A stretch of 64,000 bases of DNA from Aminobacter sp. AP02. GTDB taxonomy: Bacteria; Pseudomonadota; Alphaproteobacteria; Rhizobiales; Rhizobiaceae. The notes beneath the pieces were generated by a model. The model ran no database searches. It was not told the DNA's origin and saw only the letters and a program-made list of their open reading frames with translations. The first letter of the stretch is position 1. Each line of letters opens with the position of its first letter. The translations under genes and the position numbers were made by a program. Shown here piece after piece: positions 13,819-61,435 of the stretch. The DNA is taken from assembly GCF_003148805.1 (NCBI RefSeq), contig NZ_QGGX01000017.1, positions 62,001 to 126,000 on the forward strand. Reading direction: 5' to 3'.

Positions 13819-13949
13819 CTAGGTCACAAACTGGCTCGAAACCAGCTGCTTGGACCTATCAGTTCGCCGGAATCGCCTGCCAGCCCCCCTTTTCTTCCTT
13901 CGCGGGCCACGGCTATACTCGGCAATCTGCAACGACAATCTGGTGATTG

Positions 13950-15383
13950 ATGCCGCCTGCAAAGAAGGAAGTCCGTCCGTCCAACCGGGGGGGACGAGCC
14001 CGCACGCCCGCATTTGTGAAGAACAAGCGCGGCGTGAAGAACTGGAAGGAAGCCTCCGAGTGGCTCGAGTGGCGCGGCATCGAAGACATAGAGTGCATCA
14101 CGCCTGACCAGGCTGGCGTGGCCCGCGGCAAGATGATGCCGTCAAGCAAGTTCACCTCCAACACCTCGCTGGCGCTGCCGTCCGCACCGTTCATGATGAC
14201 GATCTCGGGTGACTATCCGGAGGACGGCAACGGATTTCAGTATCCGGAGGACGATGGCGACCTGAAGCTGGTGCCTGATCTGTCGACGCTGTCGGTGGTG
14301 CCGTGGGAAGACGACCCGACAGCGCAGGTGATCTGCGACCTTGTCCATCAGGACGGCCGCAACGTCGAGTTCACCCCGCGCAACGTTCTGAAGCGCGTGG
14401 TGGCGGCCTACGACAAGCTCGGCCTCAGGCCCGTGGTGGCGCCAGAAATCGAGTTCTACCTCGTCCGCAAGAACCCCGACCCCGACTATCCGCTGACCCC
14501 GCCCGTGGGACGCTCGGGCCGCCCCATCGGCGGCGGTGCCGGCTATTCGATCGCCGGCGTCAATGAGTTCGACGAACTCATCGACGACATCTACCACTTC
14601 TCCGAGGCTCAAGGGCTCGAGATCGACACGCTGATCCACGAAGAGGGCGCTGGCCAGCTCGAGATCAACCTGCGTCATGGCGACCCGATCGAACTGGCCG
14701 ACCAGGTGTTCCTGTTCAAGCGCACGATCCGCGAGGCAGCGCTGAAGCACGATACCTACGCCACCTTCATGGCCAAGCCGATCCAGGGCCAGCCGGGCTC
14801 GGCGATGCATATCCACCAGTCGATTCTCGACAAGAAGACCGCCAAGAACATCTTCACCGCCGAAGACGGCTCGGAAACCGAAGCATTCTTCCACTTCATT
14901 GGAGGCATGCAGAAGCATGTGCCCAACGCGCTGGTGATGCTTGCGCCTTATGTGAATTCGTATCGCCGGTTGACGCAGGCTGCTTCCGCACCGGTCAACA
15001 ACAAGTGGGGCTACGACAACCGTACCACCGCCTTCCGTGTGCCTCGTTCCGATCCTGGTGGGCGCCGTGTCGAAAACCGCATCCCGTCCTCGGACGCCAA
15101 CCCATATCTTGCGCTGGCGGCATCGCTGGCCTGCGGATTGATCGGGCTGACCAACAAGCTGCCGTCCGAACCGCCAGTGCTGACCACCGCCAACGAGGAC
15201 GAGATCGATCTGCCGCGAGGGCTGCTGGAAGCGGTCGACCTGTTTGAAGGCGACGAGGAACTGGCAACGATGCTTGGGCGGTCGTTTGCTTCTACCTACG
15301 CGGCGATCAAGCGGGCTGAATTCGAGACCTTCATGGAGGTCATCAGCCCGTGGGAGCGAGAGTATCTGCTGCTGAATGTTTGA
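13950..15383 (+). CDS. puuA: Gamma-glutamylputrescine synthetase (glutamine synthetase family)
   Basis: This ATP-dependent ligase probably joins glutamate to putrescine, the first step of the gamma-glutamylated putrescine pathway. It has 477 residues and the class-III glutamine-synthetase layout: a beta-grasp domain followed by the catalytic domain with PEIEFYLV, GAGQLEINLRHGDP, GSAMHIHQS and NRIPSSDANPYLALAA. The arginine-rich NRTTAFRVPRS segment is also typical. A glutamine synthetase proper is less likely because a PuuB-like oxidase follows on the same strand. The two genes are separated by 600 bases that hold a repeat-flanked four-helix-bundle gene, an interruption not usual for this pair. 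An in-frame TTG sits just before the chosen ATG. Confidence 0.85.
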   Translation: MPPAKKEVRPSNRGGRARTPAFVKNKRGVKNWKEASEWLEWRGIEDIECITPDQAGVARGKMMPSSKFTSNTSLALPSAPFMMTISGDYPEDGNGFQYPEDDGDLKLVPDLSTLSVVPWEDDPTAQVICDLVHQDGRNVEFTPRNVLKRVVAAYDKLGLRPVVAPEIEFYLVRKNPDPDYPLTPPVGRSGRPIGGGAGYSIAGVNEFDELIDDIYHFSEAQGLEIDTLIHEEGAGQLEINLRHGDPIELADQVFLFKRTIREAALKHDTYATFMAKPIQGQPGSAMHIHQSILDKKTAKNIFTAEDGSETEAFFHFIGGMQKHVPNALVMLAPYVNSYRRLTQAASAPVNNKWGYDNRTTAFRVPRSDPGGRRVENRIPSSDANPYLALAASLACGLIGLTNKLPSEPPVLTTANEDEIDLPRGLLEAVDLFEGDEELATMLGRSFASTYAAIKRAEFETFMEVISPWEREYLLLNV

Positions 15384-15395
15384 AGGGTGAGGCGG

Positions 15396-15438
15396 TAGGG
15401 CAGTAGGGCAATAGGGCAGTAAGGCAGTAGTGCGGCAG
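15396..15438 (+). repeat. Left array of 8-bp repeat (TAGGGCAG type)
   Basis: Four 8-bp units TAGGGCAG, TAGGGCAA, TAGGGCAG, TAAGGCAG (15396-15427) and a degenerate fifth unit (TAGTGCGGCAG) begin 12 bases after the puuA stop. Each is the reverse complement of the CTGCCCTA unit that makes up the right-hand array after 15821, so the two arrays could pair with the small gene in the loop. Confidence 0.9.
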
Positions 15439-15452
15439 CGAGGGGGTTCAGC

Positions 15453-15821
15453 GTGCCGAGCGAGATCAACTCGTATCAAGACCTTGTCGTCTGGCCGCAG
15501 GCGATGGAGTTGGCGCCTGCCATCTACAGTTCGACCAAAACGTGGCCGAAAGAGGAGCAATACGGACTGACCAGCCAAGTTAGACGCGCTGCCGTCTCTG
15601 TTCCGGCTAACATTGCCGAGGGCTACGGTCGTGAAAACCGTGGCTCCTACCAACAATTCCTAAGGATTGCGCAAGGATCGCTCAAGGAGATGGAGACGCA
15701 CCTGCTGATAGCCGAGCGTGTCGGGATCACCACCCCCGATGTAGTTCGGCAAGCGATGATAATGAGCGAAAGCGTCGGCAAGCTTCTGCGCCTGCTAATC
15801 CGCAAGCTATCGAACGAATGA
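15453..15821 (+). CDS. Four-helix-bundle protein, S23/IVP family
   Basis: This is a 122-residue protein of the family found in 23S rRNA intervening sequences and related in fold to Avd of diversity-generating retroelements. Family motifs are YQDLVVWPQAMELA near the start, YGLTSQVRRAAVSVP (about 37-51), NIAEGYGR (53-60) and FLRIAQGSLKEMET (about 69-82). Start is the GTG at 15453, preceded by AGGGGG at good spacing; no ATG is available nearby. The stop TGA touches the first base of the right-hand repeat array. The molecular role of these proteins outside rRNA is unknown. Nucleic-acid binding by the basic four-helix surface is plausible, from what is known of Avd. Confidence 0.88.
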   Translation: MPSEINSYQDLVVWPQAMELAPAIYSSTKTWPKEEQYGLTSQVRRAAVSVPANIAEGYGRENRGSYQQFLRIAQGSLKEMETHLLIAERVGITTPDVVRQAMIMSESVGKLLRLLIRKLSNE

Positions 15822-15973
15822 CCCTACTGCCCTACTGCCCTACTGCCCTACTGCCCTGCTGCCCTGCTGCCCTGCTGCCCTACTGCCCTACTGCCCTGCT
15901 GCCCTGCTGCCCTGCTGCCCTACTGCCCTACTGCCCTACTGCCCTGCTGCCCTGCTGCCCTGCTGCCCTACTG
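15822..15973 (+). repeat. Right array, 19 perfect 8-bp units (CCCTACTG / CCCTGCTG)
   Basis: Exactly 19 tandem 8-bp units fill 152 bases. Two variants differ at one base (A or G at position 5) and are arranged in blocks: 4 A, 3 G, 2 A, 3 G, 3 A, 3 G, 1 A. The array starts right after the stop of the four-helix-bundle gene and ends ten bases before the puuB start. The block pattern points to expansion by slippage or unequal exchange of multi-unit segments. Confidence 0.95.
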
Positions 15974-15983
15974 AAAGCGCACC

Positions 15984-17270
15984 ATGCCTTACCTTTCTCC
16001 GATCTCTCCTGGCCTTTCCTGGTACGAAGACACTGCGGGCCCGCGTCCGGAGTATCCGGCCCTTGACGGCGACAGGCAGGCGGATGTCGTCGTCATTGGC
16101 GGCGGTTTTACCGGGCTCTCGGCAGCAGCCCATCTCGCCAAGTCCGGCACCAATGTCGTGCTGATCGAGGCGCATCGCTTTGGCGACGGCGCATCGGGCC
16201 GCAATGGCGGCCAACTCGGTACGGGCCAGCGCGCGTGGGCGGAGGAACTTGAGGGCGAATACGGCTTCACCCGCGCCAAGGCGCTGTTTGATCTCGCCGA
16301 GGAAGCCAAGGCGCATCTGTTCGATTTCGCTTCAACCCATGGCATCGACATCGACTATATGCCGGGGCAGATGTCGGTGGCGCACAAGCCGCGCTTTGTC
16401 GACGACTACAAGGCCCATGCCGAGATCATGGCGAGCCGCTTCAACTACCCGCATGTCAAGTTCATGGACGCTCGGGAGACCGCCGAGCGGCTGGGTTCGA
16501 CGCACTATTACGGCGGCACGCGCGACACCGGCACCGGGCATATCCACCCGCTCAAACTGGTGATCGGCACGGCACGGGTTGCTGCCGAGGCCGGCGCGCG
16601 GCTGTTCGAGAACACCCAGTCGATCGGCATTACCTCACAAGGCGGAAAGGTACGCGTGACAACGCCGCGCGGCACGATCACCGCGCAAAAATGCCTGATC
16701 GCCGTCAACGCCTATGGCGGTAATCTGGAACCGATAAGTGCGTCTCACATCATGCCGATCGGGTCGTTCATCGGCGCCACTGTGCCGCTGGGTGCCGACT
16801 CCAAGGTGATCCCCGGCGGCGAGTCGGTCGACGATTCCCGCTTCGTGGTGCGCTATTTCCGCAAGTCGCCCGACGGCCGACTATTGTTCGGCGGACGTGA
16901 AATCTACGGCGTCAACGACCCCAAGGACATCCATATCCACATCCGCAAGCAGATCGCCGAGATTTACCCGGCGCTCAAGGGTGTGGAAATCACCCATGGC
17001 TGGGGCGGCTATGTCGGCATCACGATGCCGCGCAAACCTTTCGTGCGCGAGGTGATGCCCAATGTCATCTCGGCCGGCGGCTATTCCGGCCATGGCGTGA
17101 TGCTGTCCAATTTCTTCGGCAAGCTCTATGCCGAGACGGTGGCCGGCAACCGCGACAGGCTCAAGCTGATCGAGGATCTAAAGATACCGCCATTCCCCGG
17201 TGGCCGGCGTTTTCGCGCGCCGCTGCTGTTCCTTGCGCTCAACTGGTTTGCCCTGAGGGATAGGATCTAG
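15984..17270 (+). CDS. puuB: Gamma-glutamylputrescine oxidase (FAD-dependent)
   Basis: This is a DAO-family flavoenzyme that probably oxidises gamma-glutamylputrescine to the aldehyde, the step after PuuA. It has 428 residues. The FAD-binding Rossmann motif VVVIGGGFTGLSAAAHL is near residues 34-50, followed by GDGASGRNGGQLGTGQ. The C-terminal GGYSGHGVMLSNFFGKL matches the family's second flavin contact. The ATG at 15984 has no good ribosome site: only AAAGCGCACC separates it from the 8-bp repeat array, so the array may have replaced the native leader. The 3' end overlaps the convergent histidine kinase gene by 32 bases. Confidence 0.88.
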   Translation: MPYLSPISPGLSWYEDTAGPRPEYPALDGDRQADVVVIGGGFTGLSAAAHLAKSGTNVVLIEAHRFGDGASGRNGGQLGTGQRAWAEELEGEYGFTRAKALFDLAEEAKAHLFDFASTHGIDIDYMPGQMSVAHKPRFVDDYKAHAEIMASRFNYPHVKFMDARETAERLGSTHYYGGTRDTGTGHIHPLKLVIGTARVAAEAGARLFENTQSIGITSQGGKVRVTTPRGTITAQKCLIAVNAYGGNLEPISASHIMPIGSFIGATVPLGADSKVIPGGESVDDSRFVVRYFRKSPDGRLLFGGREIYGVNDPKDIHIHIRKQIAEIYPALKGVEITHGWGGYVGITMPRKPFVREVMPNVISAGGYSGHGVMLSNFFGKLYAETVAGNRDRLKLIEDLKIPPFPGGRRFRAPLLFLALNWFALRDRI

Positions 17271-61363: not shown

Positions 61364-61435
61364 TAAGGCAGTAGGGCATCAAGGCAGTACTGCAGTAGCT
61401 CTGCTGCCCTATTCCCATACTACCCTACTCCCCTC
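61364..61435. repeat. Gene-less copy of the 8-bp inverted-repeat element after murA
   Basis: Left units TAAGGCAG, TAGGGCAT, CAAGGCAG and TACTGCAG (61364-61395) are followed directly by right units of the opposite orientation, CTGCCCTA (61404-61411), CTACCCTA (61420-61427) and degenerate copies to 61435. This is the same 8-bp unit as at 15396-15973 without the four-helix-bundle gene. It begins two bases after the murA stop. The units are more diverged than in the occupied locus. Confidence 0.8.

Follow-up and report, generated by a model that had tools for sequence, protein, structure and literature searches.

An S23 gene enclosed by inverted short-repeat arrays at an operon junction, a probable IVS-type mobile element in mRNA

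The genome of Aminobacter sp. AP02 carries, between two protein-coding genes, a unit in which a gene of the S23/IVP family is enclosed by inverted arrays of one short repeat. This unit (positions 15396-15973 of the 64,000-nucleotide stretch that was analysed, hereafter the window), of which S23 is the only gene, is probably a mobile element of the intervening sequence (IVS) type that lives in mRNA and is exchanged as a unit. Comparison of genome sequences establishes the anatomy of such units, the coupling of gene and repeat and their site-tied, mostly sense placement, as well as their replacement, with the upstream gene undisturbed, at two junctions described below (nuo and alpha-E). The observation behind the original prediction, made from the letters of the window, has been confirmed, and its interpretation as an IVS-like element outside rRNA that could move between sites is partly supported.

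The element in the window

The following features were delineated.

13947-15383, plus strand: upstream neighbour, glutamine-synthetase family, puuA-like (PF00120, E 4.9e-101; ORF)
15396-15435, plus strand: left arm, five purine-rich 8-bp units of the TAGGGCAG type (sequence, TRF, minimum-energy RNA fold)
15440-15446, plus strand: likely Shine-Dalgarno sequence GAGGGGG, six bases ahead of the GTG (inferred from sequence)
15453-15821, plus strand: S23/23S_rRNA_IVP four-helix-bundle gene, GTG start, 122 aa (PF05635, NF008911; solved relative 2gsc)
15822-15973, plus strand: right arm, 19 units CCCTACTG/CCCTGCTG, inverted relative to the left unit (TRF)
15984-17270, plus strand: downstream neighbour, FAD-dependent oxidoreductase, puuB-like (PF01266, E 2.3e-65; ORF)
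61364-61434, no strand assigned: gene-free hairpin of the 8-bp unit type of the window element (sequence; pattern match with two mismatches at C17:123364; TRF row 61407-61434)

Membership of the 122-aa GTG-started ORF in the S23/IVP protein family, a trait of 23S rRNA IVSs, is borne out by profile searches, which gave 118.3 bits for PF05635 (cut-off 33.8), 178.5 bits for NF008911 and 113.3 bits for TIGR02436, each above its own cut-off; the family first assigned to this gene was the right one. The nearest solved structure is that of XCC0516 (2gsc, E 6.1e-23), which contains five chains and which we take to be a pentamer. Pooled pN/pS of S23 is 0.125 (12 close pairs, which are not fully independent), so that purifying selection acts on the protein, which is in use.

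The units of the left arm are, in order, TAGGGCAG, TAGGGCAA, TAGGGCAG, TAAGGCAG and TAGTGCGG, where TRF places 5.0 copies at 15391-15430 (84% match); in the right arm, it finds 19.0 copies of CCCTACTG over 15822-15973 (95% match). These five and 19 units agree with the four to five left copies and 19 inverted right copies that had been counted around the gene. Inverted repeats closing a stem around the ORF, another trait of 23S rRNA IVSs, are present at this locus. In the minimum-energy RNA structure of 15384-15983, the arms are paired around the gene (-246.2 kcal/mol, z -3.4), a stability equalled in 1 of 100 dinucleotide shuffles. The proposed RNA stem with the gene in its loop is upheld by this fold, but not by the centroid structure, which leaves the arms open. 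Wobble asymmetry between the two arms, examined as a possible mark of selection on the RNA stem, amounted to 123 versus 76 when pooled and to 38 versus 26 by loci (p 0.17).

The stop codon of the puuA-like gene occupies 15381-15383 and the left array begins 12 bases beyond it. Since the best puuA model for this neighbour (NF045547, 217 bits) stays under its cut-off of 650, the neighbours are named puuA-like and puuB-like; the placement claimed between puuA and puuB thus holds as a junction of co-directed genes, under looser gene names. The location of 23S rRNA IVSs within an rRNA gene is not shared, both neighbours being protein-coding, and the unit is therefore filed as IVS-like rather than as a 23S IVS. 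An Rfam scan of the window at gathering threshold returned one tRNA and nothing else. Inspection of the elements by eye revealed no target-site duplication.

The same genome (G000) holds two PF05635 genes, and the second one, on contig C8, also lies within inverted arrays, made of the 7-bp units TAGCGAA/TAGTGAG. Both unit types also form hairpins that contain no gene and have short, differing loops: the 8-bp type on contigs C2, C5, C9, C51, C6 and C17 (two, including 61364-61434), with paired matches to it on C19, and the 7-bp type as paired matches on C2, C3, C9 and C21. Several of these gene-free hairpins start at or near an apparent stop codon, as judged by eye. The hairpin at 61364-61434 begins two bases past such a codon.

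S23 genes, repeat units and their junctions

Of 247 genomes from the bacterial family to which G000 belongs, 80 encode PF05635, and 96 of the 104 matching loci were fetched, leaving out eight fragments, weak or contig-end matches and keeping six S23 pieces of <100 aa. Arms were defined as an inverted repeat with a score of ≥28 between the 300 bases on each side of the S23 gene, and windows shifted within the same loci served as controls. With this threshold, which was picked after the scores were known, arms flank 89 of 96 family loci against 1 of 209 control windows, nearly all being 7/8-bp arrays, in line with the IVS-like S23-in-stem unit outside rRNA that had been put forward. Loci of the same phylum, drawn from 60 of 398 genomes, pass in 41 of 59 cases (controls, 0/51), or in 33 of 51 without seven same-family loci and one duplicate (L218 = L181); L180 and L215, which are one locus, pass yet are not repeat arrays, and L217 is too short. 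Among 80 named loci from many phyla, drawn from an alignment headed by a Nostoc S23, 55 pass (controls, 1/298), or 50 of 75 without five that equal family loci (L235, L249, L263, L268 and L283). Passing loci include those of cyanobacteria, Acidobacteria, Planctomycetes, Bacteroidetes, Clostridia, a Chloroploca and a Kaiserbacteria genome, and a Methanophagales archaeon locus passes at score 29. At threshold 34, 76/96, 34/59 and 41/80 loci pass, against 0/209, 0/51 and 0/298 controls. No arms at score ≥28 were found in about a third of the distant loci (18/59 and 25/80). On plasmids, counted without control windows, 13 of 15 loci reach 28 while L137 and L138 stay below (16 of 44 records were fetched, and L135 was cut at the record start). 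Mismatched arm pairs were dropped as a control that is too harsh, 24% of them reaching 28, because unit types are shared between loci. The S23-in-arrays arrangement is thus general for the protein family and not peculiar to the window locus.

The unit types in family loci are TAGGGCAG, TAGGGGAG, TAGGCAG, TCGGCAG, TAGCGAA, TGGTGAA, TAGTGAG and TAGGGAA. Of the 87 loci where a unit class could be called left and right, 72 have the same class in both arms (shuffled mean 9.9, maximum 24 in 2000 shuffles). S23 is in sense with both neighbours in 91 of 96 family loci according to an ORF heuristic that is noisier in AT-rich genomes, and a separate count gave 55 of 77. Rfam found no rRNA in 40 S23 loci scanned, so that the connection with rRNA comes from published papers. 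In three of the plasmid loci (L130, L131 and L134), all cyanobacterial, S23 lies in sense inside a CRISPR operon, between cas6/cas4 or between cas10 and a cmr3-type gene.

The 96 family loci occupy eight junctions, whose genes were identified by Pfam on representatives: nuoC/nuoD (44 loci, the upstream gene being nuoC by reading), puuA-like/puuB-like (23), a circularly permuted ATP-grasp/alpha-E gene pair (the alpha-E site, 22), an acyl-CoA-dehydrogenase/NAD-binding-dehydrogenase pair (3) and four single-locus sites. There were nine sites until L047 was merged into the nuo site. An earlier notion, in which every S23 copy had inserted independently, was abandoned once the loci had grouped on these nine sites.

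On the S23 tree, where resolution is low and 44 of 93 inner branches stay open, the site label changes 8 times, against a minimum of 7 and 45 when shuffled, the 7/8-bp period changes twice and the unit class 22 times (shuffled mean 64, minimum 56). Within the nuo site, unit class changes 10 times (shuffled mean 24.7, minimum 18) and within the alpha-E site 5 times (13.2 and 9); inside the puu-like site, the coupling lies within the shuffle range (4 changes; mean 7.7, minimum 3). Units of 8 bp are found at 26 of 27 loci of the puu-like site and the four single-locus sites (22 of 23 at the puu-like site itself), and units of 7 bp at all remaining called loci (66/66). The tree test replaced a comparison of each S23 with its nearest counterpart at another site, which shares the full unit class in 25 of 93 cases, a weak signal (shuffled mean 12, maximum 22), and the unit period in 72 of 93, the latter counted without shuffles.

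The following counts take no account of genome relatedness, and their carrier sets were put together by hand from the loci. Among the 24 genomes with puu-lineage S23 (one of which has 7-bp units), 19 contain the 8-bp unit as an exact dimer, compared with 7 of 223 others; the places of this dimer were listed for all but seven of the genomes that have it. When S23's own arms are excluded, the dimer is found in at least 10 of the 24 carriers and at most 7 of the 223 others. For TGGTGAA, a dimer is present in 10 of the 11 genomes whose S23 has this unit class versus 16 of 236 other genomes, and the crosswise counts, each in carriers of the other class, are 0/8 and 2/21. Across these genomes, the arrays follow S23 carriage and unit type, which substantiates the expected link between arrays and S23-family genes in relatives; arrays without a gene are nevertheless common.

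Gain, loss and exchange at homologous junctions

Among 18 genomes in which the puu-like junction was read, S23 is present in two (G000 and G008) and a decayed S23 lies between arrays in one (G016); eight have gene-free hairpins, all in one genus (8 of its 10 members), five a short empty spacer and two a longer array-less spacer. Syntenic sites lacking the unit, as anticipated, do exist. The gene-free hairpins (L142-L147, L149 and L150) are made of 7-bp units, whereas the S23 loci of G000 and G008 have 8-bp units, and three of these hairpin genomes carry a 7-bp-unit S23 at the alpha-E site (L032, L033 and L034). Either the 7-bp hairpins were placed at the puu-like junction in trans or their units were overwritten.

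The nuoC/nuoD junction was readable in 68 of 70 loci: S23 is found in seven and a gene-free hairpin in one, in 29 no more than 38 bases separate the nuoC stop from a conserved motif where nuoD begins, and 31 have other genes or spacers. As the sample combined the 30 best matches with 40 further loci and nine known S23 carriers were skipped when choosing the 40, these proportions show that empty alleles exist and not how frequent they are. Sporadic presence with empty alleles in relatives, a further trait of 23S rRNA IVSs, is thus also found here. A different, small and array-less gene was noticed at this junction in many relatives (GFA by Pfam in L311; L301, L336-L338 and others resemble it on inspection by eye). 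Insertions in general may thus favour the nuoC/nuoD junction as a hotspot.

Both neighbours are ≥90% identical in 27 same-site pairs, which share members (L049/L109/L111; L001/L032/L033) and hence are not independent. Thirteen of them keep an S23 that is ≥80% identical, the unit class differing in three (L035/L121, L101/L106 and L072/L115; S23 81-94% identical). In eight others, with neighbours 92-99% identical, S23 is 52-67% identical and the units differ every time; one more S23 stands at 79% and the S23 alignment is too short in five. Three species of one genus (L049, L109 and L111), the neighbours of which are 96-99% identical, contain three different S23/unit combinations. All eight swapped pairs are located at the nuo and alpha-E sites and none at the window's puu-like site, where both close pairs retain their element. 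In the swapped pairs, identity reaches the upstream stop codon and returns at or just before the downstream start, the downstream side having been judged by eye only.

Ordinary homologous recombination could swap junction alleles between species without the element having any mobility of its own. This explanation, which we hold to be a tentative possibility, is consistent with exchange at homologous junctions and with well conserved flanking genes. However, the eight replaced pairs show no clear increase in upstream-gene divergence near the element: in the successive bins from 0-15 to 120-240 bases, it is 10%, 6.7%, 9.2%, 7.1% and 7.0%, compared with 8.5%, 10.3%, 11.8%, 10.6% and 9.2% in 11 of the 13 retained pairs (two being outside the alignment filter). 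This flat profile implies that the swapped stretch reaches no more than a few bases from the upstream stop. Recombination is also at odds with L037, which occupies a site of its own. Its nearest S23 is the puu-site S23 of its genome (83%), with a different unit class (A versus B), and it is likely a jump to a new site.

It is unlikely that the element is instead resident and not mobile, S23 and its repeats having occupied few junctions since the family ancestor with frequent loss, the arms changing together by slippage and template switching between palindrome arms and the protein evolving fast. Such a history would fit the clustering of S23 proteins by site, the variable array length, the differing unit class in 3 of 13 retained pairs despite similar S23 and the agreement of S23 with its neighbours at the puu-like site, where S23 and downstream-gene identity correlate with rho 0.58 (0.18 at the nuo site, which exceeds all 999 permutations, and 0.23 at the alpha-E site). 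It is difficult to reconcile with the same-genus species whose S23 genes have diverged to 52-67% between nearly identical neighbours, with other units and mostly in other tree groups, when equally close pairs keep S23 at 81-98%, or with the kinship of L037 to the puu-site S23. Of the three large sites, the window's puu-like one gives the stronger impression of vertical inheritance. These comparisons support exchange as a unit well at the nuo and alpha-E sites and less so at the window's site. The mobility proposed at the outset thus draws on empty, decayed and gene-free alleles at the puu-like junction and on swaps at two other sites, but its own site offers the more vertical picture.

In a further alternative, a repeat-driven hotspot, the mobile part would be palindromic heptamer arrays, REP- or MITE-like, shifted by unrelated host machinery, with S23 as a passenger. 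Many gene-free hairpins, and the 7-bp hairpin in 8 of 10 genus members at a junction where S23s have 8-bp units in 22 of 23 cases, speak for it; it is made improbable by arrays that follow S23 carriage and unit type, by the arms of most S23 genes of other phyla (55/80) and by purifying selection on S23. Finally, a host regulator, in which the hairpin would serve stability or termination inside the operon and S23 would be a beneficial RNA-binding protein kept in certain operons, would agree with purifying selection and with the mostly sense placement at nuo, acc, puu-like and cas operon junctions, but is unlikely in view of the patchy presence (80/247 genomes), the frequent empty junctions and the unrelated operons.

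Proposed mechanism and relation to known systems

For the IVS-type element exchanged as a unit, the following mechanism can be proposed. An S23 gene placed between inverted arrays of one short unit would, because the arrays are inverted copies of that unit, give a transcript in which the arrays pair as a stem and the gene forms the loop. The element would settle at the junction of two co-directed genes, 0 to ~12 bases beyond the stop of the upstream gene, with the arrays and S23 travelling together and each lineage tending to its own unit type and particular junction. At a given junction, the element could be gained, lost, replaced by that of another lineage or reduced to a gene-free hairpin. 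By analogy with 23S IVSs, the RNA stem may be cut by RNase III, which would render the insertion tolerable in an operon and, as first suggested, might part the puuA-like from the puuB-like message. S23 may bind the stem, as suggested by its relative Avd, which works with RNA, and the length and sequence of the unit are probably what S23 recognises.

REPIN/RAYT systems and MITEs combine many gene-free palindromes with few gene-bearing copies, the repeats being matched to the protein lineage. Similarly, gene-free palindromes accompany gene-bearing copies here, with identical arm type in G000, and the repeats are matched to the S23 lineage. In contrast to these systems, the S23 unit contains no transposase and consists of tandem 7/8-bp units of variable sequence with site-tied lineages; a scan of ten neighbouring genes, two of them without a match to any family, revealed no transposase, whereas REPIN/RAYT systems have a Y1-type partner. 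A resemblance of PF05635 to Avd of diversity-generating retroelements in sequence and structure has been described (PMC10053308). No reverse transcriptase was found in the ten neighbouring genes scanned with Pfam.

To our knowledge, IVSs have been regarded for decades as rRNA oddities, and the role of the S23 protein has not been settled. For the Coxiella 23S IVS, the published report describes heptamers upstream of the S23 ORF, which vary in copy number at its 5' side, a 28-bp stem, RNase III cleavage in vitro at the first repeat and an S23 thought not to be expressed (PMC4990558). The window element resembles 23S rRNA IVSs (Coxiella, Leptospira) by its S23 ORF, which forms the loop above a stem of terminal inverted repeats, and by its sporadic distribution, and that of Coxiella by heptamer-type repeats beside the ORF. 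Unlike them, it lies in mRNA between protein-coding genes and has tandem arrays on both sides, the right one being long; its S23 evolves under purifying selection, whereas the Coxiella protein is, according to that report, probably not expressed. Among the matches listed in a literature search, whose coverage excluded subscription journals and preprints, the Coxiella paper was the only one to bring S23 together with heptameric repeats.

Heptamer repeats have also been reported on their own, namely GGGAATC in Xanthomonas, with 70-75 inverted pairs near gene ends, and GGGGA(C/T)T in Nostoc (PMC4692102), TAACTGA repeats (PMC4679880) and heptamers in P6b of Nostoc trnL (PMC4476775). Like the arrays described here, these are 7-bp tandem units and mostly intergenic, and arms of the Xanthomonas heptamer GGGAATC at L216, and of GGGATTC at L193, flank an S23 gene. 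By Pfam, L216 stands between genes for a biotin carrier and a biotin carboxylase, accB/accC by reading, and PF05635 matched there over positions 1-64 only. A text search of two heptamer-repeat papers, PMC4692102 among them, found neither S23 nor four helix, and the trnL and TAACTGA repeats would be tied to S23 arrays by analogy only.

A broader reading, which as a whole we offer as speculative, is that S23 genes and heptamer arrays form widespread site-specific homing elements for which no nuclease, integrase or reverse transcriptase is known. The target junction would be set by the lineage of S23, which would also recognise its own repeat unit in trans, so that gene-free hairpins of the matching unit would spread along with it, and rRNA IVSs together with many cyanobacterial and xanthomonad heptamer repeats would belong to this class or be relics of it. 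If S23 genes do generally live and move in short-repeat hairpins at operon junctions, IVSs would represent a corner of a large mobile class, the heptamer repeats of several phyla would gain a candidate partner protein and S23 would gain a testable role, the recognition of the hairpin in which it lies. This question can be tested now, given that gene and repeat types are matched, that empty alleles occur naturally and that same-genus species have swapped elements.

Minor observations concern sequences beside the arrays and S23 genes. Near the S23 genes L189, L192 and L198 of one family (f68), GCTTCGCT-like repeats occur with no clear inverted pairs. In L109 and L111, a short palindrome, GGCGGAGCCGCC, separates the right arm from the next start codon, and similar tails, GCGGAGCGC, precede nuoD in L086 and L112.
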